Shown: piece by piece, positions 33,205-55,724 of the stretch | How the letters are laid out: every line of letters begins with the position of its first letter | How positions within the stretch are numbered: position 1 is the first letter of the stretch | Assembly: GCA_029550925.1 (NCBI GenBank) | Contig: JAKPGL010000130.1 | Location: 40,821 to 104,820 of the forward strand | DNA from: Planctomycetota bacterium | GTDB lineage: Bacteria; Planctomycetota; Planctomycetia; Pirellulales; Thermoguttaceae | Direction of reading: 5' to 3' | Length of the DNA: 64,000 nucleotides | Translations under genes and position numbers: made by a program | The notes under the pieces: model-generated | Database searches by the model: none | What the model saw: the letters and a program-made list of their open reading frames with translations, nothing else | What the model was told of the DNA's origin: nothing

Positions 33205-36200
33205 TTAGTCCTTTTCCATGCTGGCCTGGATTTGTTGGGCGGAGAGGTCGAAGGGGAAGGCGGCATAGTGGGACAGTTGGCGGCGTTCGATCTTTAATCG
33301 GATTCGGGTGGCTTCATCGGTGTTGGGGTCGGCCATCTGTTGATCGAACTGTTGGACTGTGGAACGGGTTTTGGATCGGCCTTGTTCATAGGCTTGGATG
33401 GCCGAGGCGCCCCATTGGGCCGCTGCGGCGTCCAATTGGGGGAACAATTCGGGTTTGGGCCGCGAAGGCCCTTCGGGCGCCAGCTCGGCAAACTCCCGAA
33501 GCTGGCCGATCCAGGAGAGCATCCCCTGCCAATCTGCGGAAAGCGATTGGCCGGGTTTGGGTTTCGGCCCCGTTGTCAGCATCCCGATCAATTCTTCGAG
33601 GCCCCGGTTGTAGGATTGCCGCTCGAAAAACGTCCAAGCAATCGCCATGCGCGGCAGAGGCAGTTCGGAATGCTCCAGTTTCAGGCGTTCAAAATGTTGC
33701 TGGGCTTCCTCTCGGTCTTTGCGGTCTTTGGATTTCAGCAAACACAGGCCGTAGGCCAATTCCGGCTCCAGTTCACTGCCAGCCAACTTCTTGGCTTCCG
33801 AATAGGCCTGGCTGACGGCGTCCATGTCGATCTTCTCCTGTCGCACGAGCGAAAGTAACCGACGGATGGAGCGTTTGGCGTTTTCGGAAAGCCGGGGCGG
33901 CTCCAGATTGGGCAGAAACAGCTCCGGGGTTTGGGTCTTGGCCAATGCCTTGCTAGCTTCGGACATGGCGGCTTGCAAGAATTCCGAAAGTTCGGTCGCC
34001 TCCAGTTGGCCGTCCCGGTTCTTGTCCGCTTTGCCGGAAAATCCCTCCGCCAATGCGTAGGCAAAGACCGAATGGCCTTTGTCAGGCCAATAGTATCCCT
34101 TCTGGCCTTCTCGACAACTGGCAATGGCGGTTACCGTGCGGAGGATGCCTCGGGTTTGAGGCGTTTTGATCGTGCGGATCATTTCTGCGGTGGACGGCTG
34201 GTTCAGCCCATGGGCGGCCGTATCCTGCGAGCAGTCTAAAAGCAGCCATTTCTCTTTGGCCGAACATTTCTCCAATTCATCCACCAGCCATTGCAACGGC
34301 AAACCAGTAAGGGGAATCCGCCGGGAGTCGAAATTTTTGGGCGCCAGATATACCTTCCCTTCCGAATCCTTAAAGGCATGGCCGGCGAAATAGACGATCA
34401 CCGAACTGTCGGCCCCCGTCCGGTCCAAAAAACCAGGAATGCCCTGTTCCAGACGAACCAGATTCTCGTCCACCAGCAGTAAGACCTGTTCCGGGGGCAC
34501 GGCAAACCGGCGAACCAGAACATCGCGAAGATATTGCACATCCTGAGTGGGCCAGCGGAGCCCGGTCAACAATTTGTCTTCGTAATTTTGGACGCCGATC
34601 AAGATGGCCCACCGCTTTGGGTCCGGCGGCCGACGAGCGGCAATCTGTTTGGCCTCCGGCGTGCGCGCGGGATCGGGCGTATCGTGCTGGATATCGACAA
34701 TATCGCCGCGGCGCAGGTCGGTCCACTCGACCGGTTCGCCGCCCAGGGTGATCTTGCAATCGGGGCGAACCAGAAACTTTTTCTCTTTGCCGTCCACTTG
34801 GACATCCATCGTACGGGCGTCGTACTCGATCCGGACAATTGGCCCGCCCTCGCCGATGGTCCGATAGGCGTGGATGCGGAGGATTTGCAGATCATGATAG
34901 ACGGTGGCCTTATCGCCCGGCTGCAAATCGGCCGGGGTGAGCCGTCGCTCTTGAAGCACCGCCTGGTCGTTGAGCGTTACTTCGCAGTTGGGCGCGATGG
35001 GCAACGAAAGCACTTCCGAAGAGGCCGTTTCGCCTCGGTCGAGAGTCAAGATTTTCTTCTTCGGGTCATAATCCCGAACCACCCCCTCGAAGGAGACCAC
35101 CCGTTGGATGTCCAGTTGCGTAGCTTCCCGACCGGTTTCGGTCCCCCGATGTTTCACCACCACCCGGTCATCCACTCGCAAGTCGGCCAGTTGGACGGCG
35201 CGACCGTCGATCTCGGTTCGACCGTTGATGGTGATCTTCTTGTTTTGGCTGAGGTCCTGAGGAACTTGAATACAAAGGGGCGGAGTTCCCTCGGGACTGT
35301 TTTCAATGGCGAGCCAGAATTGGCCCAATTCCGGCTCCACCTTGGCCGCCACCCCGCGATGTTCCTCCGGGCGATAAATGTGGTATTCGGTGAATCGCCG
35401 TTTGGTTTCCACATCGTCGAGCACTTTGACGATCATTTCGTCGCCTTCGCGGAGATCGCGCAAGGTGGCGGCTTTTTCATTGATAAAAAAGCGATCGTAT
35501 CTGCCGACAGAGCGTTCCACCGCCCGCCCCTTTTGGTCTCCCTCCAAGTATTCTACCGAGATAAGATGTTCGTCCGAATAAACATGTCGAACCACCGCAC
35601 GGGTGGGCGGAGGCGGACCTTCCGGCGGCGGCGTGGGTCTGGGCAGAATCATCCAGATCGACAGCAAGAGCGATACCAATATCGCCGCAATCGCCCCGAT
35701 CCGAGTGAGCTTCTTTTGCCGGGCTTCGCGCTCCCGGGCGGCGATCTGTTCGGGCGTCTCCTCTGGCGGCGGCGGGGGCATGGCCACCAACCGAGGGTCG
35801 GTCCGCAAATCCCGCAGCGCCTCGGCCGCCGAATGATACCGACGTTGGGGGTCTTTGGTCGCCATCCGTTGGATGACGGCGGCCAAATCGGGCGGCACCC
35901 CTTCCAGGACCCGATGGATTTCCGGCAAATGCAAATCCGCCGCCGCATGCCACATCATCCAGGCGATCTGCGGGTCGCGGCCATAGGCGCTCAGACCGGG
36001 GAAAAGGTTCTCGAACTGCCGACCGCACATCAACTCGTAACAAACGAATCCTAACGAATACAAATCGCTGGCAGGACCGACCGGCCCGAACTGCGGATTG
36101 ATAAGCTCCGGGGCCATGTATTTGGTAGTACCTTTGAGCAGGCTGCCCTCTTCATTGGCGGCCCGCCGGGCCAGGCCAAAATCGCCCAACTTCACCCGCC

Positions 36201-36618
36201 CCTGAGCGTCAACCAGCAGATTGCTGGGTTTAATGTCCCCGTGAATAACCCCGCGAGAGTGCAAAAAGTCCAATGCACTCAAGCCACCTGCCAGCACAAT
36301 GCGAAGATAATCCAGATCGATCGGGCCGGCCTCCAACGCCTGTTTCAGGCTGCCCCGCATCAGCTCCAGGATCAGCCAGCCCCGGCTCCGGTCGATGTCG
36401 TAAATGGTCAGAATGTGCGGATGCTGGAGGTTGGCCAGTAGTTGCGCTTCCCGCCAGTACCGCTCCAGTTGCCGGGGGTCGATCAGATATTGCTGATGGA
36501 TCTGTTTGATGGCCACTTCCCGGCCAAGTTCTCGGTCCCTGGCCCGATAGACAATAGCAAAATCCCCGGCGGCGATGGTATCGACGATTTCATAACGGGC
36601 GGTCGCTGCCATGGACAT
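33205..36618 (-). CDS. Transmembrane Ser/Thr kinase fused to caspase-like (C14) domain
   Basis: 1137 residues. Residues about 9-272 are a Hanks kinase: lysine K38 in VAIKQI, HGDIKPSN (126-133, with HGD for HRD), DFG 146-148, APE 169-171. A Pro/charged linker leads to one membrane helix at about 308-325 (AIAAILVSLLLSIWMILP). Then come four beta-rich repeats (about 343-402, 423-491, 510-576, 593-646), each ending in an L-x-x-L-R/Q-x-G-D module. Residues about 668-885 are a C14 caspase fold with RWAILIGVQNYED, catalytic-type histidine H747 in VIVYFAGHAF and cysteine C795 in WLLLDCSQD. Inside it, D865-K-N867-R-D869-G-Q-L-E-A-T-E876 is a perfect EF-hand loop. A helical, possibly TPR-like C-terminal region follows. 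It lies downstream of the Tad genes on the same strand. Confidence 0.93.
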   Translation of the reverse strand: MSMAATARYEIVDTIAAGDFAIVYRARDRELGREVAIKQIHQQYLIDPRQLERYWREAQLLANLQHPHILTIYDIDRSRGWLILELMRGSLKQALEAGPIDLDYLRIVLAGGLSALDFLHSRGVIHGDIKPSNLLVDAQGRVKLGDFGLARRAANEEGSLLKGTTKYMAPELINPQFGPVGPASDLYSLGFVCYELMCGRQFENLFPGLSAYGRDPQIAWMMWHAAADLHLPEIHRVLEGVPPDLAAVIQRMATKDPQRRYHSAAEALRDLRTDPRLVAMPPPPPEETPEQIAAREREARQKKLTRIGAIAAILVSLLLSIWMILPRPTPPPEGPPPPTRAVVRHVYSDEHLISVEYLEGDQKGRAVERSVGRYDRFFINEKAATLRDLREGDEMIVKVLDDVETKRRFTEYHIYRPEEHRGVAAKVEPELGQFWLAIENSPEGTPPLCIQVPQDLSQNKKITINGRTEIDGRAVQLADLRVDDRVVVKHRGTETGREATQLDIQRVVSFEGVVRDYDPKKKILTLDRGETASSEVLSLPIAPNCEVTLNDQAVLQERRLTPADLQPGDKATVYHDLQILRIHAYRTIGEGGPIVRIEYDARTMDVQVDGKEKKFLVRPDCKITLGGEPVEWTDLRRGDIVDIQHDTPDPARTPEAKQIAARRPPDPKRWAILIGVQNYEDKLLTGLRWPTQDVQYLRDVLVRRFAVPPEQVLLLVDENLVRLEQGIPGFLDRTGADSSVIVYFAGHAFKDSEGKVYLAPKNFDSRRIPLTGLPLQWLVDELEKCSAKEKWLLLDCSQDTAAHGLNQPSTAEMIRTIKTPQTRGILRTVTAIASCREGQKGYYWPDKGHSVFAYALAEGFSGKADKNRDGQLEATELSEFLQAAMSEASKALAKTQTPELFLPNLEPPRLSENAKRSIRRLLSLVRQEKIDMDAVSQAYSEAKKLAGSELEPELAYGLCLLKSKDRKDREEAQQHFERLKLEHSELPLPRMAIAWTFFERQSYNRGLEELIGMLTTGPKPKPGQSLSADWQGMLSWIGQLREFAELAPEGPSRPKPELFPQLDAAAAQWGASAIQAYEQGRSKTRSTVQQFDQQMADPNTDEATRIRLKIERRQLSHYAAFPFDLSAQQIQASMEKD

Positions 36619-36767: not shown

Positions 36768-37964
36768 TTACGGAGGACCGCTCAACAGGGTGATTAGACA
36801 TTTCTCCAACTCGCGATCTCGTTTGGGGCTGCCCGTCAGCCCACGGGCCGGGTCCAATCGCTCCGCCCGAAGCATATCCAAAACTCTCTGGTAGTATTGG
36901 CGTTCTTTGCGATAATCTCCCTGGGCGTAAGCGATCAAGGCTTCCCGAAGATAGATTTGATAGCGTTCCAATTCTTTGCCTTCCGGATTGCCAGTATATT
37001 CCGCCTCGATCTTCTGGCGAACTTCCCGCTTCTCTTGTTCCAACGAGGTGTTTTTGGGGGCGACATCCATAAGAATCAACACCACCGAAAGCCCCAGACT
37101 CAGACAGACGGCGGCCAACAGGAGAAAGGGATTCATGGAACGACTCTCTTGAGCCGCCGGTTGGTCTGCGTCGGTTTCTTTGAGCCGAAGTTCCGGTAAT
37201 TTGCCGTCGCTTCCTAAGGGCATGGTGGAAGGAGCGGCCTGGGTGGCGATGAATCGGGCCACCTTTCGGCCCGCCGCCCCAGAAGTGGGAAGGGTAGCCA
37301 CTACTCCCGCTCGGCCAGAACGCGCTGGCGGTGCGACTGGGGAGACAGTCGGGGAACCTTTTCCTGACGGCGGTGCGGGCGGCAAGCCAGCGGTCGTCCC
37401 CGGCGCCACAGCTCCTGGGGCGGGCGGGGGGACATTGGGCGGCGCCGGCGGCGGGCCCCCTGGTAACCCCGAAGGAGGAACGCTCGGCGGCGCCGGCGGC
37501 GGGCCTCCTGCTACCCTCATGCCCGGTGTAAGACCACCGGGGGGAGGCGGAGGAACCGAAGGGACGACTCCGCCTGGAAGCGGCGGCGAAGACGCCGTTC
37601 GGACCGGCGGCGCTCCGCTGCTCGGCGGGGCCGAACCGCCCAGCGGCGGCGGAGGCGGCGGCGAAGCAGGCAATGGTCCTCGCCCTGGAGCAACCGTCCC
37701 CGGGGGAAGCGGGCTGGACGACGCCGGAGGAACGCCTCCGGCGGTCGGAGACGGCAAACCCGCCGACGCCCCTGCCGCCACACCCGCGCTAACGCCCGGA
37801 TTGAGAGCGACAATCTCGGCAGGTTCTGGGCTGGGGTCTATTGGGGCGGTGCTGGGAACCCAAAACCGGCCCCCACACTGAGGGCAATGTGCGTAACTAT
37901 TGGCCATCTTGCGAGGCGCCAATAAATGCTGCCGACACCGTGGACATTGCAACTGGAAAGGCAT
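36768..37964 (-). CDS. Zinc-ribbon single-pass membrane protein with Pro-rich linker
   Basis: 398 residues. An N-terminal MJ0042/DUF-type zinc ribbon (CPRCRQHLL and CPQCGGRFWVP, spaced about 21 residues) is followed by about 200 residues dominated by Pro, Gly and Ala (PPPPPGG-type repeats), one membrane helix (PFLLLAAVCLSLGLSVVLIL), and a charged helical tail of about 90 residues (EQEKREVRQKIEAEY, DYRKERQYYQRVLDML). The same ribbon-linker-helix plan occurs in the interrupted protease at 51.8 kb. Function unknown; the ribbon would be cytoplasmic. It sits between TadC and the kinase-caspase gene on the same strand. Confidence 0.8.
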   Translation of the reverse strand: MPFQLQCPRCRQHLLAPRKMANSYAHCPQCGGRFWVPSTAPIDPSPEPAEIVALNPGVSAGVAAGASAGLPSPTAGGVPPASSSPLPPGTVAPGRGPLPASPPPPPPLGGSAPPSSGAPPVRTASSPPLPGGVVPSVPPPPPGGLTPGMRVAGGPPPAPPSVPPSGLPGGPPPAPPNVPPPAPGAVAPGTTAGLPPAPPSGKGSPTVSPVAPPARSGRAGVVATLPTSGAAGRKVARFIATQAAPSTMPLGSDGKLPELRLKETDADQPAAQESRSMNPFLLLAAVCLSLGLSVVLILMDVAPKNTSLEQEKREVRQKIEAEYTGNPEGKELERYQIYLREALIAYAQGDYRKERQYYQRVLDMLRAERLDPARGLTGSPKRDRELEKCLITLLSGPP

Positions 37965-38055: not shown

Positions 38056-39000
38056 CTACATGGTTAACCCGAATTGCAGATAATTCATTAAAAATGGCCC
38101 GATGATGATCAGCACCGTGGCCACCATGATCAGCACACCAGGCAGCAGCATGTTGACGCCGGCTTCGCCGGCGACGGTTTCGGCCCGTTGGGTGCGTTTC
38201 AGTCGGAGCAGGTCCGCCTGGGTGCGGAAGATGTGGGCCAACGGCGTGCCTAGTTCTTCGCCCTGCAGAATAGCGCCGATGATGCTGGTGATTTCGTCGT
38301 CGCTGAGTCGATCCCGCATGGCCGAAAACGCCTCATATCGGGTTTTCCCCAGGTTCATATCCGTCAGGACTCGTCCGAACTCCTCGGCCACCGGATGTCC
38401 GTGAAACTCTTTGACCCCTTGGGTCAGGGCGTTGAGGAACGAGGCGCCGGCTTCCATGAGCAGGGTCAATAGGTCCAGCAAGAAGGGCATCCTGCGTTTG
38501 ATCATCAACAATCGCCATCGGGCGCGTGCGGCCAAGCGCCGACGCAAAAAATAGGCCGTCAGGATCGTCATCCCCGCCGCGGCCAAAAGGCCGGCCATCC
38601 CCAACGCATTGAAAAAGAAATAGCCATACAGCGGCGACAGGGCCAACGCAAACAGCTCGGCACGGGCCAGATATTCCTCGGCCAGCCAGAAGCGCGGCAA
38701 CCCGGCCGCCTGAATTTCTCGATGGATTTCTGGCAACGCCTCTCGGAAAGCGGCCCGATTGAAGGCCGCCAACAGTTGGATCAGCGGTTGGAAGACCCGA
38801 TAAAAAATGTCGATCCGCCGCAGTTCGTTGATGCGGGTTACGTCGTAGCGCCATTCTCTGTCTTGCGGCAGGTCTTCGGTGTGCAAGACCTGATAAAGCC
38901 AATAGATAAACACGGCGACGGCCAACCCCATCACCCCGCTCGCCGTGATCAACAACCCAGGGATGTCCGTTGCAATAAGCAGCGTTATCGTCGTTTCCAT
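38056..39000 (-). CDS. tadC: Tad pilus/type II secretion inner-membrane protein TadC
   Basis: 314 residues. Type II secretion system F-domain protein: membrane helices at the N-terminus (LLITASGVMGLAVAVFIYW), a central pair (YGYFFFNALGMAGLLAAAGMTIL), the conserved RMPFLLDLLTLLMEAGASFLNALTQGVKEF and GRVLTDMNLGKTRYEAFSAM, the QGEELGTPLAHIFRTQADLLRLKRTQRAE amphipathic segment, and C-terminal membrane helices (VLIMVATVLIIIGPFLMNYL). TadC and TadB form the inner-membrane platform acted on by the CpaF ATPase. It starts about 34 bases after the TadB stop. Confidence 0.92.
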   Translation of the reverse strand: METTITLLIATDIPGLLITASGVMGLAVAVFIYWLYQVLHTEDLPQDREWRYDVTRINELRRIDIFYRVFQPLIQLLAAFNRAAFREALPEIHREIQAAGLPRFWLAEEYLARAELFALALSPLYGYFFFNALGMAGLLAAAGMTILTAYFLRRRLAARARWRLLMIKRRMPFLLDLLTLLMEAGASFLNALTQGVKEFHGHPVAEEFGRVLTDMNLGKTRYEAFSAMRDRLSDDEITSIIGAILQGEELGTPLAHIFRTQADLLRLKRTQRAETVAGEAGVNMLLPGVLIMVATVLIIIGPFLMNYLQFGLTM

Positions 39001-39033: not shown

Positions 39034-39882
39034 TCAAATATCCGGACTGAGAATCTTCCGGGCCCAAAAATAGGCCAGGATATTCAACAGCATGGCCGTC
39101 GCCAAAATGAATTGGCCGAAGGCCGTTACAAATAGCAGCCGGGTATTTTCCGGGTCCACAAAATAATACACCACCAAGACAAACACGGGCACAATGGCCA
39201 TATAGACGGCCGATTTGCGGGCCTGGGCGGTTTCCGACAGGACCTTTCGTTCCAGGCGTTGAAGTTCCAGAACCGATTGGGCGATCCGTTCGACGGTTTC
39301 GTTCAGCCGTCCGCCGCTTTCATGACTGGCCAACATGGCGGCGGCAAACAGGGCAAAGTTTTCGCTCTTGAGCCGTTCCTTCGCTTCCAATAGCGTTCGT
39401 TCCAATGGCTTGCCCAGTTTATACTCTCCGATAATCTGGTGAAATTCAGTGCTGATGGGTTTGGGAGATTGGGCCGCCAACATTTCCAGCGCTTGCGGCA
39501 ACGAAAGCCCCGCGCGAATCGCATTGGCCAGCGTAACCATGGCGTCGGCCAATTGGTCCTCGATCTTCTGACGCCGATACTCCGCCAGCCGACGAATCAC
39601 ATACCACGGCACGCCGATCAGCAGGACCGTAATCACGATCGCAAAAATCCAACTCTCTAGTACCAGCCAAAACCCAAAAAACGACGCGATCATCGCCGCC
39701 AACCAAAGCGTCAAATAGGTGCGCAATCGCCGGGTCGGGTACCGCAGGCGGGTGAGTTTGTCGGCCAAGTCCTCTTCCACGTAGCGGAACGCGGCGGCCG
39801 CATAATCTTGGCAGAACAAGCCCAACGCAGCCCCGGCCAACCCTATCATCAGCGTACCAAGCCACATCATCTCGTTGCCCAT
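39034..39882 (-). CDS. tadB: Tad pilus/type II secretion inner-membrane protein TadB
   Basis: 282 residues from ATG 39882; a TTG six codons upstream is the alternative. The F-domain is clear: membrane helices MWLGTLMIGLAGAALGLF and WLAAMIASFFGFWLVL, then QLADAMVTLANAIRAGLSLPQALEMLA, HQIIGEYKLGKPLERTLLEA, FALFAAAMLASHESGGRLNETVERIAQSVLE split over two helices, and RKSAVYMAIVPVFVLVVYYFV. It is the second platform protein. It follows the CpaF gene by about 150 bases and precedes TadC closely. Confidence 0.92.
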   Translation of the reverse strand: MGNEMMWLGTLMIGLAGAALGLFCQDYAAAAFRYVEEDLADKLTRLRYPTRRLRTYLTLWLAAMIASFFGFWLVLESWIFAIVITVLLIGVPWYVIRRLAEYRRQKIEDQLADAMVTLANAIRAGLSLPQALEMLAAQSPKPISTEFHQIIGEYKLGKPLERTLLEAKERLKSENFALFAAAMLASHESGGRLNETVERIAQSVLELQRLERKVLSETAQARKSAVYMAIVPVFVLVVYYFVDPENTRLLFVTAFGQFILATAMLLNILAYFWARKILSPDI

Positions 39883-40034
39883 AGGTTGCTCTCGCTCCAA
39901 AGGTATCCTACTGGGAAGATACGCAACGGTAGCTCCCCTCCAACGGATCGCGCCAAAATCGGCGGCTCGGAATCCCAGGCGGCAGCCATCGCACCAACTG
40001 CCTCCTCGGGTTTTGAGGAGGCAAAGGGACCGGT

Positions 40035-41981
40035 TTACCGGTTTGTGCGTCGGGGTTCGCCGCGAGCCGCCGGAGCGCCGTCGCCGCCGCCTCGTGTGCC
40101 GTACAAAAATTCAATGTCCAACAAGTCCTTTTCAATCAGGGAGTCGATAAACGTAGGCAAATAGCCCGTCGGCTGAAGCGAGACGCCGTTGCGGAAATTG
40201 AAAATATCGGTAAGCACAATTCGCTGCAATTGGGCGTCGTATCGGGTTACTTCGGAGACTTGGGTAACCGCCCGGCGTCCGCCCGGAAGCCGACTGAGAT
40301 GGACGATCACGTTCAAGGCCGAGGCGATCTGCCGATGGATGGCGGTTACCGGCAAATTGGCTCCCATGAGCATCAGCACCTCCAAACGCTCGATCACTTC
40401 TTCGGCGCTATTGGCGTGTACGGTGGTCATGGAGCCGTCGTGTCCGGTGTTCATCGCCTGGATCATATCGACGGCCTCGCCGCCGCGGCATTCGCCCACG
40501 ATGATCCGATCGGGCCGCATACGCAAGGAGTTGCGGACCAGATCGCGGATCGTATAGGCGCCCGTGCCTTCCACGTTGGGCGGCTTGGACTCCAGGGTAA
40601 CCACATGCTCCTGGTGCAACCGAAGCTCCGTGGTGTCCTCGATGGTGACGATCCGCTCTTTATAGGGAATAAAGCTGGAGAGAATGTTCAGCATGGTGGT
40701 CTTCCCGGAGCCGGTGCCGCCGCTTACTAAGATGTTCTTCCGGTCGATCACACAGGCCCGCAGGAATTGGGCGGCGGCCTCGGTGATGCTGCCCATTTCC
40801 ACCAGGTCGTCCATCGTCCACCGCTGCACCGGGAATTTTCGGATCGTCAGGCACGGCCCACGCACCGCAAGCGGCGGAATAATGGCGTTCACACGCGATC
40901 CGTCCGGAAGCCGCGCGTCCACCAAAGGCTGGCTCTTGTCGATGCGGCGTCCCACCTGGGCCACGATCCGCTCGATGATCGCCTCGGTAACTTTATCGGA
41001 AATGAAGCGTCGGCCGGACTTTTCAATCACCCCGTTCCGCTCCACATAAATCTGGTCGCTTTTGACGACCATGATTTCCGTAACCGTCGGCGCCCGGATC
41101 AAATCCTGCAACGGGCCGAACCCAAAGATCGTGTCCTTCAGGTCTTTTTTCAAAATCCGCAGAAGGATGTATTTCCGAAGTTCTTCGTGCAAATGGGGGC
41201 GAACCAGCGGGAAAAACTCGTGAAACCGTTCTTCCACCCGTTGGACCTGCTCGGTGGAATCCCGACATTCGTGCAGAGACAGCCGCTCCCGCAAAAACCG
41301 CAATAGCCCGTGCAATTCCGCCTCGCGTTCCGGCACCAGCATGGCGGGCACATCGAATTCGTTCGTAGCCAGGACGGCCAGATCGAAATACTGTTCCCGG
41401 CCTCCTTCCATGATCAGTTGATTCACCAGAAGGTCGCGCAACACCAGGCCGGCCAGCTCTTCCAAAATCGGAGCGTTCCCCTTGTTGAAAACGTCCAACT
41501 CCCGGCAGATGTCTTCGATGTTGTTTTCCAGCAGGAGGATGGCTTGGGTGTCGGCGGCGGCCCCAGCCTTTTTTTCAAATTCCATCAGGTCTAGCCGTTC
41601 GAGGAGTTTTTTGTGGATTCGCAGTTCCAGGTCGGCCAATTGGCTGCGAAGATGGGCCTCCAGCTCGGCCCGGGTAACCGAAGGCGGTTTTTCGGCCTCA
41701 AAGGTGAGCGTATAGGGCCAAATGCGCACCTTCACCCCCGGATCAAACGCCGCCGTCTGTCCGCCCAGTATCTCCTCCTCGCCCACCACGCAACTGTTCA
41801 GACCGACGTTCTCCAAATAGAGCCGACCGTCGTGGATCCGCACGACCGCATGACGACGGGAAACCAACGGACTGGGCAACACCACATGGTTCGTTGGGTC
41901 CCGACCGATCGTGATCTCATTGGTCTGGACCTCGACCATCGAGCGGCGACTTTCGTTGATCTTGTTGAACCAAATCTTCAT
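40035..41981 (-). CDS. cpaF: CpaF/TadA secretion ATPase with N-terminal FHA domain
   Basis: 648 residues. The first about 95 residues are a forkhead-associated domain: EITIGRDPTNHVVL, SRRHAVVRI and a terminal VRIWPYTLTFE strand, giving the GR, S-x-x-H and N phosphothreonine-binding signature. The rest is a complete type II/IV secretion ATPase: FGPLQDLIRAPTVTEIMV, RRIDKSQPLVDARLPDGSRVNA, Walker A GGTGSGKTTML (about residue 418), Asp-box IVTIEDTTELRL, Walker-B/His region RPDRIIVGECRGGEAVDMIQAMNTGHDGSMTTVHAN. It powers Tad pilus assembly or retraction. Start overlaps the CpaB stop (TCAT). An FHA fusion is uncommon in well-studied CpaF proteins. Confidence 0.95.
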   Translation of the reverse strand: MKIWFNKINESRRSMVEVQTNEITIGRDPTNHVVLPSPLVSRRHAVVRIHDGRLYLENVGLNSCVVGEEEILGGQTAAFDPGVKVRIWPYTLTFEAEKPPSVTRAELEAHLRSQLADLELRIHKKLLERLDLMEFEKKAGAAADTQAILLLENNIEDICRELDVFNKGNAPILEELAGLVLRDLLVNQLIMEGGREQYFDLAVLATNEFDVPAMLVPEREAELHGLLRFLRERLSLHECRDSTEQVQRVEERFHEFFPLVRPHLHEELRKYILLRILKKDLKDTIFGFGPLQDLIRAPTVTEIMVVKSDQIYVERNGVIEKSGRRFISDKVTEAIIERIVAQVGRRIDKSQPLVDARLPDGSRVNAIIPPLAVRGPCLTIRKFPVQRWTMDDLVEMGSITEAAAQFLRACVIDRKNILVSGGTGSGKTTMLNILSSFIPYKERIVTIEDTTELRLHQEHVVTLESKPPNVEGTGAYTIRDLVRNSLRMRPDRIIVGECRGGEAVDMIQAMNTGHDGSMTTVHANSAEEVIERLEVLMLMGANLPVTAIHRQIASALNVIVHLSRLPGGRRAVTQVSEVTRYDAQLQRIVLTDIFNFRNGVSLQPTGYLPTFIDSLIEKDLLDIEFLYGTRGGGDGAPAARGEPRRTNR

Positions 41982-42787
41982 GGCGCCTTCCCCGCCTCTT
42001 TCTTTTTAGAAGGACATAACATGACAAGCACGTTCCGGAAACCAGTCTGGTGCAAGAGGTTCACCAACGCTTTGCCTTTGGGTTCTAACTGGCCGTCTGG
42101 TTGGACCCGAACCACGACGCCAATAACGTTCTCATTGGCGGGCTGTTTGCCCCAGGCTTGCCAGACTTCCGGAGAACTCAGTCGATTGCCCAACGAAAGG
42201 ATCTTAAAAGGCCCCAGAATCTGCGGATCGCCTTTTCCGGATCGGACCGCCAGAGAAGAGACAGGTTTCGGCTGGGGCGACGCCGAACCTTCCTCTGCGG
42301 CGGAGTCGGACGAAGAACTGCTCGGCGCCATATAAGCGGGCGTGGGCCCTTCATACGAAATGGCAAACTCTACCTCGTTCCCAGGCGAAACCAAACTCGG
42401 CACAAAACTACTCGACGCCACCGGCACCCACACCAGTCGTTCGTCCGGCTGCAACGTCAGGTTAGGCGGCGGAGTTTTTAAGTCGTCCTTCAGTAACAGC
42501 GAACCTCCCGTCAACGTCCGACATACCGGACGCCCCACCACGCTGGAAGATGCCTCCCAGAGATACGCAAAATCATTCAAATTGCCGACGTTTCCTTTAG
42601 GGATATTAATGGGAACCAAGTTTTCTTCCGTGAGCTTATCGCCCGCATTCACCGTTACATCCGGCCGGATGCCGATAAATCTTACCAGCTCTAGTTCTTT
42701 GGACTTCTGAACCAAATAGGCATAGCTAAACAGCGCCCCGGCAATTCCCAACCCTAACGCCACTATCAACCCCTGAATTCCTTTCAT
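41978..42787 (-). CDS. cpaB: CpaB-like SAF-domain pilus assembly protein
   Basis: About 269 residues from ATG 42787. One N-terminal membrane helix (GLIVALGLGIAGALFSYAYL) is followed by a SAF domain in VNAGDKLTEENLVPINIPKG, and then a second beta region (LQPDERLVWVPVASSSFVPSLVSPGNEVEF), as in CpaB/RcpC, which lies in the periplasm and is thought to bind peptidoglycan or organise the secretin. The C-terminal part has a Ser-rich linker (SSSSSDSAAEEGSAS). The stop overlaps the CpaF start by four bases, proving tight coupling. A CpaC secretin is not in the window. Confidence 0.82.
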   Translation of the reverse strand: MKGIQGLIVALGLGIAGALFSYAYLVQKSKELELVRFIGIRPDVTVNAGDKLTEENLVPINIPKGNVGNLNDFAYLWEASSSVVGRPVCRTLTGGSLLLKDDLKTPPPNLTLQPDERLVWVPVASSSFVPSLVSPGNEVEFAISYEGPTPAYMAPSSSSSDSAAEEGSASPQPKPVSSLAVRSGKGDPQILGPFKILSLGNRLSSPEVWQAWGKQPANENVIGVVVRVQPDGQLEPKGKALVNLLHQTGFRNVLVMLCPSKKKEAGKAP

Positions 42788-42976
42788 ACGCTTTGCCTTT
42801 CCGAAAAACGAGAAACAAATCAACGCCCTAGAATCGATGCCCTAAAAGAAAACGGACTCTTTCGCCCTATGGATGCTGGATCGCAGTCCGCCTGGGCCAG
42901 GCAAACCAGATATTCTTTTGAGCAGATCGATTAGGATTTCTAAGGATTCCATAATTCCATGAACAAGGCGATGCGG

Positions 42977-44191
42977 TTAGGGCCCCGTCGCTGGGGTGGC
43001 AGCGGATGGGCCCTCCGCCCATATCCATATTAAACCCGTCCAAGTGTCGGCGGCGTCCGGTCCGAAGGAGATTTCCACGATTTTTTCCCTGGACGAGCCA
43101 GCCTGGGCGGCCTCTGGTTCAGACGCCCCAGGCCATAAGAACCGACTCCTCCATCGGACGCCCTGCTGCTGCCAAACGCCTAGCTGTCGGCCTCCATGAG
43201 TGCGAAAATAGGTTTCGTAAAAACTCTTCCAGGTTTCCGGCCGAGGAGGGCCTCGAAACAAGGTCAAAGCGGGGCCTTGAATCAGTCCTAAGGAGTACAT
43301 CAATGTACTCTCTGGAGGTATTGGTATGCCTTCCCCCACTCCCTGGGGGCCGCCTCCAACCGAGGAAACCGCTACCAAAGTATATAATGTCCACCGCCCC
43401 TCCCCGCTGGGAATCCCAAAACCCCAGCTTACCACGTTCAGGGGTTGCTGGGCAACCTCCGATTCCGAGGGGGAAGGCAGCGGGGGGGCCTTCTCCCCAG
43501 TTTTTCCTTTTGGATTCTCAGTTTTTGTTGGTAAAGGGATATTTGGTGTTAAGGCAGAAGACGCGGGGAAAGAGGGGTTTTTTTCTTCCTTTCTGGCTGG
43601 CTGGTTTTTTTCCTCAGAGGGGGGGGTAGAGAAATGATCTCTTTCTCGTACCCCCACCACAAGGGGAACGCTCTCATAGAATGCATACACAGCCCATCCC
43701 GTACCCTTGGCAACCGGCGCTCGGTCCTTCAGTCTCTCCAAAAATTGCCGCTGCTGGGCGCTGGGTTCTGGGCCGGAAGTTTGGCAGGCCGCGGTAGCCT
43801 GAGCGCACTCGGTCTTTAGCCGATCGAAGGCCCTTCGGGTGTCCCCTAAAATCACCTGCCGACGAAACTCCCAAGGGGCGTCGCCGAATCGAAATACATG
43901 GACCCGTTCCTCTTCGCCCAGCCCGGCCAAGGGGTCGGTCAGGAAGGCGGCCTTGCCGGACTCTGGAGTCTCTTCATACCACCACCGGAGCACCTGCCGA
44001 CCAAATCCCACACTGGCCGCCGCAATGATCGCACAGAGCAGTCCCCGGGTGGTCCACTGGGCGATCCTCGCCGCCAACCGACCCCATCCCAGCGGTTCCG
44101 CCGACTTTTCAGGGGTTTCCGCACGGGCAACTTCTGTCCGGTCCCCTTTTGGTTCCGTCGGCAGTGGCGGGTGATCCAAAAGATTGGCCAT
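42977..44191 (-). CDS. Single-pass membrane protein of unknown function
   Basis: 404 residues from MANLLDHPP with AAAGGG upstream; an ATG at 44233 is also possible. A charged cytoplasmic head and one membrane helix (GLLCAIIAAASVGFGRQVL) are followed by an extracytoplasmic region with LGEEERVHVFRFGDAPWEF, a Pro/Glu/Lys-rich linker, and a beta-rich C-terminal part with Trp/Gly (WTLYTLVAVSSVGGGPQG, WTGLIWIWAEG). I recognise no family. It is between the giant TPR gene and CpaB on the same strand, suggesting a link to the pilus or the envelope. Confidence 0.75.
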   Translation of the reverse strand: MANLLDHPPLPTEPKGDRTEVARAETPEKSAEPLGWGRLAARIAQWTTRGLLCAIIAAASVGFGRQVLRWWYEETPESGKAAFLTDPLAGLGEEERVHVFRFGDAPWEFRRQVILGDTRRAFDRLKTECAQATAACQTSGPEPSAQQRQFLERLKDRAPVAKGTGWAVYAFYESVPLVVGVRERDHFSTPPSEEKNQPARKEEKNPSFPASSALTPNIPLPTKTENPKGKTGEKAPPLPSPSESEVAQQPLNVVSWGFGIPSGEGRWTLYTLVAVSSVGGGPQGVGEGIPIPPESTLMYSLGLIQGPALTLFRGPPRPETWKSFYETYFRTHGGRQLGVWQQQGVRWRSRFLWPGASEPEAAQAGSSREKIVEISFGPDAADTWTGLIWIWAEGPSAATPATGP

Positions 44192-44252
44192 TTGTTTCGG
44201 CCCTTTCGATCCACGGTCCCACCGGGCCAACACCCGTTGCTATATAGATATT

Positions 44253-53856: not shown

Positions 53857-54555
53857 CTAAGGGGTGCAGACTGCCTGCCCCATCCGTACGGCTTCGACCA
53901 GATCATGAACCGCCGCTTCCAAACGCCGAAAAGATCGCATCTTCTGCCGAACCAGACTTAAATCCACCAGCTCTGCCAGCTTCGCCTGATCCCGAGGCGG
54001 GTTGTAGCCGGTAGGAATCTTTTGCCTTATCCAACCCTTCGCATCCCGGGGCGACGTTTCTGGATCCGCCGGAATCTCCTGAGGTAGTTTGGAAACTACA
54101 ATCCGGCCATCCGGAAAGCGTTTTCCTACCAATGAGTCGGCTGCGGCAATGAACCAGGATTCAAATTCTTTACAAGCGAACACCACGGCCACAGAAAACT
54201 GGCTGCCAGCACCAACTCGTTGCGCTTCCTTAGCAAGCATCCGGGCTGCTCGCATCGCACAAAAATCCTCCCCCTCCACCGGCCCACGGCCATCCCAAAG
54301 AAAATCGCTATCGCCATCCAACAGAAGAAGGGCAGCGCCAAAGTCCTTCCGTGTTTTGGCAACTTTCAAATAACGATGCCAATCAGCAAATTGATTTTTG
54401 CAAACTTTGCTATACCCTCCTACTCGGATTGGAAATTCGTCGAGAATGATCACGTCGAAAGCGGCCTGTTGTGCCAGGAGGCGTTTGACCAGCACGCACG
54501 TCGCCTCTGCGTCGCCGTGGCCTTCGACCATCAGCACAAGCCGCTTCCGACTCAT
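53857..54555 (-). CDS. DUF4276-like TOPRIM-fold protein
   Basis: 232 residues. TOPRIM signatures are visible: MVEGHGDAEA (Glu at residue 11), LLLLDGDSDF (D80-x-D82), and FACKEFESWFIAAADSL. Such DUF4276/TOPRIM proteins are predicted nucleases or nucleotidyl effectors and commonly pair with an ABC-like AAA ATPase. Here the start overlaps the stop of the ATPase gene by four bases (ATGA), a strong link. The C-terminal half is an all-helical charged region. By analogy with PARIS, OLD and similar defence pairs it may be the effector of a phage-defence module; that is inference. Confidence 0.82.
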   Translation of the reverse strand: MSRKRLVLMVEGHGDAEATCVLVKRLLAQQAAFDVIILDEFPIRVGGYSKVCKNQFADWHRYLKVAKTRKDFGAALLLLDGDSDFLWDGRGPVEGEDFCAMRAARMLAKEAQRVGAGSQFSVAVVFACKEFESWFIAAADSLVGKRFPDGRIVVSKLPQEIPADPETSPRDAKGWIRQKIPTGYNPPRDQAKLAELVDLSLVRQKMRSFRRLEAAVHDLVEAVRMGQAVCTP

Positions 54556-55724
54556 CCGGCCGTCTCCACCTCGCCAGCCGCCATTCGAGGAGTCTCTACC
54601 GTAAACAGTTCGCCGGGATGCAACAACTGTTCACGCAAAGCCTCCCGTTGATCCTGGGCCAGGGGACCTATCCGAGTCTCCAAATCCACCAACTCCACCA
54701 CCCGGATCTGCTCGTCGGAAAACTCGTCCAGAAGCATAGGGCTGTGCGTGGTCAGCAGCACCTGCCCCCGGCCCGCATCCGGCGCCGCTTTGAACTCACC
54801 ACCCAGTAGCTTTAATGCGGCCGGATAAATCCCATTCTCCGGCTCCTCAAAAACAAGCGTTTGCTTCGAAGGCTTCTGATACAGGGCAAGCAGGTGGGCA
54901 AAGAACCGACGAAAACCGTCCGACTCCTGATCCAAGTCCAAAGGCAAAATTTTCTCTCCCAACCGATGGCCAACAATCACTCGCTGCGGTTGTTGAATAG
55001 AATTCGGCTGGATGGTGGCGATGGTGGGATTGAGACACTGAAGGGTAGCTACCATCGCCTTCGGCGTCTCGATGTCCTGCAGATCGGTAAGGAGTTGCCG
55101 AAGAACCTGGAGATAATTTTCGCCTTTGTCGGCCAACCCGAAGTTAGAAGAGACAGTTTCGCTTTTTCGGAGCACGTCATAGGGGAAATTATACACGCCG
55201 ATTCCGGCCGTCAGTGCCGTATACGCTAGCACTGCTTCCTCCAAACCCGGCAGTCGGCCCAAAGCCAACGCTCCAGGCTCAGGAGGCGATATTAAAGAAG
55301 GAGGGACCTGCCAGATGACAGAAGGAGAGACCTGCAGGGGCGAGGAGCTTGGGGGGCGGGGCTTCGCTTGGGAAAAAATTATCTTTTGCCCTGTTTCTGT
55401 TTCGCAACTCAACTCTTCCAAGAGAAGATAGTCCCTCTCAGAGCTCAATCGTAATGTGTAATGAAAAGGGGTATTCATTCCGGAAATGGTAAATTCTACA
55501 CTAAACTCGGGGGGCCCCTTGGGATTCGTAGCACAGCGCCAATTTTGTTGGTTGGCGTATGGGGGAACTCCTCCTTGGATTAGGTAATCTCGCAGAAACC
55601 GGATGGCGGAGACGAAGTTGGTTTTTCCCGTGCCGCTTTTGCCGATAAACACGGTAACCGGCGAGAGTTCCACGGTTACGTCCCGAAGACTTTTGAAATT
55701 TTGGATCCTGATACGGTGGATCAT
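54552..55724 (-). CDS. AAA15/AAA21-type SMC-like ATPase
   Basis: 390 residues. N-terminal IHRIRIQNFKSLRDVTVEL and Walker A IGKSGTGKTNF (28-35) begin an SMC/RecF/OLD-type ATPase. Later are a D-loop/Walker B LVFEEPENGIYP, the VLLTTHSPMLLDEF switch region with histidine, and a large helical insertion. The family includes ATPase sensors of two-gene defence systems (PARIS AriA, OLD, Gabija GajA-like) and RloC-like proteins. GGGGAG precedes the start. The stop overlaps the TOPRIM-like gene (ATGA) and the start overlaps a 61-codon frame (ATGA). Confidence 0.87.
   Translation of the reverse strand: MIHRIRIQNFKSLRDVTVELSPVTVFIGKSGTGKTNFVSAIRFLRDYLIQGGVPPYANQQNWRCATNPKGPPEFSVEFTISGMNTPFHYTLRLSSERDYLLLEELSCETETGQKIIFSQAKPRPPSSSPLQVSPSVIWQVPPSLISPPEPGALALGRLPGLEEAVLAYTALTAGIGVYNFPYDVLRKSETVSSNFGLADKGENYLQVLRQLLTDLQDIETPKAMVATLQCLNPTIATIQPNSIQQPQRVIVGHRLGEKILPLDLDQESDGFRRFFAHLLALYQKPSKQTLVFEEPENGIYPAALKLLGGEFKAAPDAGRGQVLLTTHSPMLLDEFSDEQIRVVELVDLETRIGPLAQDQREALREQLLHPGELFTVETPRMAAGEVETAG

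Follow-up and report, generated by a model that had tools for sequence, protein, structure and literature searches.

The window analysed here, a stretch of 64,000 nucleotides, carries on its minus strand a gene for a receptor kinase with a pseudo-orthocaspase domain (33205..36618). The gene is a single open reading frame of 1137 amino acids running from 36618 to 33205, and a plus-strand reading of the same interval is interrupted by stops. The encoded protein consists of a Hanks-type kinase domain (aa 9-268), a transmembrane (TM) helix (aa 307-325), four beta repeats, a caspase fold (aa 668-903) and a helical C-terminal domain. Its full-length orthologues are 44-83% identical. A Ser/Thr kinase fused to a caspase-like domain in this order had been proposed in the original prediction, and the Pfam matches to Pkinase and Peptidase_C14 within one reading frame bear this out. 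The C-terminal helical domain (aa 912-1137) and the Tad neighbours were both missing from that account. At the loci L021 and L051, the frame of the kinase region is broken by a frameshift and an in-frame TAG, possibly through assembly error.

Read along the minus strand, the neighbourhood comprises a CpaB-like gene, an FHA-bearing tadA, tadB, tadC, a gene for a Zn-ribbon, Pro-rich and TM protein, and then the receptor kinase. The CpaB-like gene (41978..42823), conserved upstream of TadA, has no Pfam match and is named from its position and a reading of its sequence alone. The TadA/CpaF ATPase (40035..41981) combines an N-terminal FHA domain (2.8e-11) with a T2SSE domain (1.1e-63), which is the architecture of class III CpaF, and the FHA signature (GR, SRxH, Asn) is kept in 11 of 11 aligned sequences. 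Two T2SSF platform proteins were assigned by Pfam and synteny, one TadB-like (39034..39900; 5.1e-22) and one TadC-like (38056..39000; 1.2e-14). The Zn-ribbon/Pro-rich/TM protein (36768..37964) is the conserved upstream neighbour of the receptor kinase. TadA, TadB and TadC, as in a Tad/Flp pilus locus, are encoded together, and a secretin and a TadE/pilin gene are missing from the same locus; searches for secretin and TadE-type genes gave matches on other contigs and none on the contig of the window. Beside the CpaB-like gene, a further gene without a Pfam family (42977-44233) is conserved. Elsewhere in the window (53857-55724), an AAA-type ATPase-like gene is accompanied by a small one on the same strand; the two are possibly a defence pair.

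The one-strand order from the CpaB-like gene to the kinase is kept in the Thermoguttaceae/Pirellulales loci that have enough flank. It is also kept in L092, from another family of the order, in L119, L122, L124 and L126, and in part of the Planctomycetaceae. At L055, TadC lies on the opposite strand. In two Planctomycetaceae loci (L055:6984-7928 and L056:6914-7840), the counterpart of the Zn-ribbon gene carries an N-terminal FHA domain instead. The link to Tad genes is not universal, since many of the fetched Planctomycetaceae homologues have no detectable Tad genes within about 8 kb.

The kinase domain (35815..36594, minus strand; Pfam Pkinase, E 7.7e-47) has the catalytic residues K38, E57, D128, N133 and D146, all invariant in 15 orthologues. 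H126-G127-D128 stands where HRD would be expected. The protein shows every mark of a Hanks-type receptor kinase, i.e., the Lys, the Glu, the Asp and Asn of the catalytic loop, DFG, APE, a TM helix and an ectodomain. Matches to the PADLOC defence models were confined to the kinase domain and gave nothing specific. The single TM helix (35644..35700, minus strand) has a hydropathy of 2.64 and positive-inside flanks, with six Lys/Arg residues in the N-terminal flank and two in the C-terminal flank; the direction of this bias is shared by 15 of 15 orthologues. Judging from the flank charges, the kinase would be cytoplasmic and the remainder of the protein, including the caspase fold, would lie outside. 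The caspase-like part had been placed across the membrane from the kinase, and the bias agrees with that placement.

The ectodomain begins with four beta-barrel-like repeats (about aa 338-664; 34627..35607, minus strand). They match no Pfam family; the strand pattern in the AlphaFold2 (AF2) model agrees with the four repeats named in the original prediction. For the whole ectodomain, AF2 gave a mean pLDDT of 89.4 and a pTM of 0.54. The model contains about four beta repeats followed by the caspase fold and a C-terminal domain of helices, and because of the pTM the relative placement of these domains is unsure. Foldseek matches of the whole ectodomain were chiefly to caspases, with a weak match to the proteasomal ATPase Mpa. 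The C-terminal domain (33208..33885, minus strand) is a set of predicted helices of TPR-like appearance. Its TPR match in Pfam is weak and under the cut-off, and the domain is missing from several Planctomycetaceae orthologues.

The caspase/p20 fold of the ectodomain (33910..34617, minus strand) is supported by sequence and structure prediction. Pfam Peptidase_C14 matches aa 668-901 with an E-value of 4.6e-10, exceeding the gathering score. Structure prediction had been suggested as a check, and the AF2 model of aa 655-912 with 15 orthologues is a caspase fold with a pLDDT of 90.5 and a pTM of 0.90. In a Foldseek search of the PDB with this domain, the MALT1 paracaspase (3v4o) came top (E 1.4e-12, TM 0.65-0.71), followed by metacaspases and caspases. 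MALT1 is the closest solved fold; the identity is 17%, however, and MALT1 is an active protease in animal immune signaling. A search by sequence for a solved bacterial C14 relative found none and returned just a weak EF match to calerythrin. The best-scoring curated caspase model was NCBIfam NF047832 (caspase EACC1-associated type), with 84.6 bits over aa 670-887. This is below the model's cut-off of 140 bits, the catalytic Cys is missing, and the EACC1 association was not seen. The same genome encodes two further C14 proteins, both of which have H and C motifs.

The original prediction named a His/Cys dyad, H747 and C795. His747 (34378..34380, minus strand), in an FAGHA motif, does stand at the catalytic-His position. 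The Cys is in fact residue 796 (34231..34233, minus strand); it precedes the catalytic column by one residue and is not conserved. In C14 domains whose His-Cys (HC) dyad is intact, a strand ends in an Asp and the nucleophile follows two residues later (D-x-C). D795-C796-S797 aligns without gaps with D-V-C, D-A-C and D-C-C of such domains, so that C796 is in the wrong position and Ser797 (TCG; 34228..34230, minus strand) occupies the catalytic one. A sequencing error at Ser797 is unlikely because Ser is found in the close relative L034 as well; L035, of the same genus, has Cys. Over 45 orthologues, the catalytic-Cys column holds Ser in 16, Cys in 9, Thr in 8, Gly in 6, Val in 2, and Ala, Asn, Pro and a gap in one each. 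The His747 column holds His in 34, Arg in 6, Gln in 3, and Ile and Ser in one each. Ser797 is unlikely to be a stand-in nucleophile, since Gly, Val, Ala, Pro and Asn occur in the same column, which ranks 151 of 236 in conservation (28-sequence alignment). The complete dyad is found in eight of the 45 orthologues, scattered over the tree. Mapped onto a quick maximum-likelihood tree, the label of an intact HC dyad required seven changes, and well-supported branches force five of them; with shuffled labels the figure was 7.5. The dyad is not under consistent selection in this family, given that the label is no more clustered than when shuffled.

These columns bear on the calcium- or phosphorylation-gated protease that was originally thought plausible. 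Such a protease, active, facing away from the cytoplasm and serving cell death or processing, would fit with the caspase fold, the presence of His747, the conserved EF-type loop described below, and the eight orthologues with both H and C, one of them of the same genus. It is contradicted by the Ser at the catalytic-Cys position, here and in L034, by the occurrence of Gly, Thr, Val, Ala, Pro and Asn in that column and Cys in only nine of 45, by the loss of His to Arg, Gln, Ile or Ser in 11 orthologues of the 45, and by the original Cys being one position off. The protease was rejected as a candidate on the catalytic-Cys column, and we regard it as very improbable for this protein. The domain has the fold of an active orthocaspase (Peptidase C14) and lacks the His plus D-x-C pair; it corresponds to a pseudo-orthocaspase, i.e., a p20-type domain with a substituted dyad. 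Some family members may be proteases, as eight orthologues, L035 included, retain the HC dyad. Sister genes with and without the dyad offer material for comparing proteases with pseudo-proteases.

The caspase domain also contains an EF-hand-type loop, DKNRDGQLEATE (aa 865-876; 33991..34026, minus strand), between two of its helices. In the loop, D865-K-N867-R-D869-G-Q-L872-E-A-T-E876, the ligand positions 1, 3, 5 and 12 are occupied, and AF2 predicts a helix-loop-helix. In 15 full-length orthologues, D865, N867, D869 and E876 do not vary at all, which is far above chance. In the set of 45, D865 (position 1) and E876 (position 12) are each retained in 44; Asn or Asp fills position 3 in 44 and position 5 in 43. 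The four ligand columns rank 4, 5, 25 and 36 of 236 in conservation (28-sequence alignment). The loop had been called a perfect EF-hand ending in E876. Its sequence is as described and its ligands are kept; the word perfect goes too far, as the Gly at position 6 is kept in six of 28 orthologues (rank 158 of 236) and the Pfam EF-hand match at aa 863-882 scores 13.5 bits against a gathering score of 25.9. The loop is also single, where EF-hands are paired.

C14 domains with an intact dyad from other bacteria, both other Planctomycetota and records titled Bryobacterales, Nitrospirae and Bacteroidetes, have an equivalent loop in the corresponding position. Examples of caspase domains with the loop and with retained catalytic residues are L079, L084, L057, L088, L083, L059, L058 and L089. 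This recurrence rules out a loop unique to the receptor kinase. This C14 subclass may have the EF-type loop as a general calcium-type element. The common position of the loop marks it as an inherited feature, and the retention of the ligand positions in nearly all 45 orthologues indicates that it outlasts the active site. No report of EF loops inside bacterial caspases was found in the open-access literature; the nearest was a mention of EF-hand motifs as additional domains of archaeal caspases.

Because the loop is so strongly conserved, a calcium-related role of the ectodomain, as sensor or scaffold, is plausible. The loop may, alternatively, be a structural helix cap. The protein would then still be a receptor kinase of the Tad machine, and the loop a conserved structural turn passed down from bacterial C14 domains with no part in calcium binding. 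Its recurrence in HC-intact domains, the frequent loss of the position-6 Gly, the missing EF partner and the score under the Pfam cut-off are all compatible with a plain turn. However, a plain turn needs none of the oxygen ligands at positions 1, 3, 5 and 12, which are specifically the ones kept. We consider this explanation possible, if somewhat unlikely.

Of greater interest than the protease question is what surrounds the gene. Among 60 genomes, 18 have the kinase together with its cognate FHA-TadA, 2 the kinase alone, 2 TadA alone and 38 neither (Fisher p 3.6e-11, a statistic that ignores the shared ancestry of these related genomes). The two kinase-only genomes (G025 and G032) are both fragmentary. 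Both TadA-only genomes have a kinase-TM-repeat relative that lacks the caspase domain. Four genomes have a divergent FHA-TadA, and the nearest kinase relatives, 3-14 kb away, bear other ectodomains, namely PEGA, FGE-sulfatase and Ig/TPR. For this reason, the kinase and the FHA motor look like a pair with exchangeable sensors. The kinases in question lie at L094:7161-9401, L095:3130-5739, L096:5114-7957 and L097:2005-5904; the L096 kinase has no DFG and may be a pseudokinase.

The conserved linkage to FHA-TadA points to signaling from outside to inside. Since the gene lies beside a pilus motor gene with a phosphothreonine-reading domain, its product is probably a sensor for the pilus machine and not a death protease. 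A different role is conceivable, in which the pseudo-caspase serves as a structural module or a docking site, for instance for pilins, peptidoglycan or a genuine protease partner such as the C14 protein at L001, and the kinase targets the cell envelope without a special tie to Tad. The Planctomycetaceae orthologues away from Tad genes would suit such a role, as would the kinase-TM-repeat relative of family f5, which has no caspase domain and lies outside the Tad operon, and the genome's two additional C14 proteins, in which H and C motifs are present. It is harder to reconcile with the strict gene order throughout the Thermoguttaceae/Pirellulales, the tight co-occurrence with FHA-TadA, and the kinases near divergent FHA-TadA genes, and we think it unlikely.

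The reading we prefer is that of a receptor kinase with a periplasmic pseudo-orthocaspase sensor, which signals by phosphothreonine to an FHA-bearing Tad motor; we give it an even chance (about 50%). A signal from a peptide, the envelope or surface contact, perhaps with calcium on the EF-type loop, would alter the ectodomain with its repeats, pseudo-caspase and helical domain. The caspase fold would act as a ligand-binding and possibly calcium-binding sensor instead of a protease. The change outside would alter the pairing or activity of the kinase inside, which would phosphorylate threonines on itself, on the Zn-ribbon/Pro-rich membrane neighbour or on a platform protein. The FHA domain of the operon's TadA would read the phosphothreonine and switch or localise the Tad-like machine, by which pilus or secretion activity might be controlled. 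A more specific relay, in which the sensor is calcium-loaded, the motor ATPase reads the mark via FHA, and lineages swap the sensor while keeping the kinase-motor pair, is tentative and, taken as a whole, rather doubtful.

No kinase-pseudocaspase receptor tied to a Tad operon was found in the open-access papers searched, and several described systems share parts of its design. Pseudo-orthocaspases are bacterial C14 p20 domains without the His-Cys dyad; Ser is the commonest reported replacement of the Cys, and HC conservation is low (64%) in Planctomycetes (PMC6426788, PMC3501461). The receptor kinase resembles them in having a caspase/p20 fold with dyad substitutions. In contrast to the described examples, its family mostly keeps the His while the Cys position drifts over S, T, G and C, and the domain is fused to a membrane kinase, predicted to lie outside, equipped with a conserved EF-type loop and linked to Tad genes. 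A fusion of this kind did not turn up in the papers searched. The caspase fold has apparently been given a new use, as the outward-facing sensor of a bacterial receptor kinase, in which a calcium-type loop outlasts the active site.

In type VI secretion (T6SS) clusters, the kinase PpkA and FHA proteins relay threonine phosphorylation, of Fha or TssL, and PppA is the phosphatase (PMC5995506). Here too, the gene of a TM kinase accompanies that of an FHA-bearing component of a cell-envelope machine. Unlike the T6SS pathway, the machine is Tad/T2SF-like, the FHA domain is on the motor ATPase itself, the sensor is a pseudo-caspase, and a scan of neighbouring proteins revealed no cognate PP2C phosphatase.

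FHA-bearing TadA of the class III type, as at window positions 40035-41981, is common in these planctomycetes. In one study, class III CpaF is reported to carry an FHA domain and to occur mostly in betaproteobacteria (PMC12019362). The Kil apparatus of Myxococcus, a Tad-like system, has an FHA-KilF, for which the authors suggest a signaling cascade (PMC8460266). The locus shares with both the fusion of FHA to a TadA/CpaF ATPase. Whereas those accounts, as far as their accessible text goes, name no partner kinase, the kinase here is linked to the motor by gene order. A kinase can be proposed for the FHA-bearing Tad motors of class III CpaF, which makes the control of Tad-like machines by phosphorylation directly testable.
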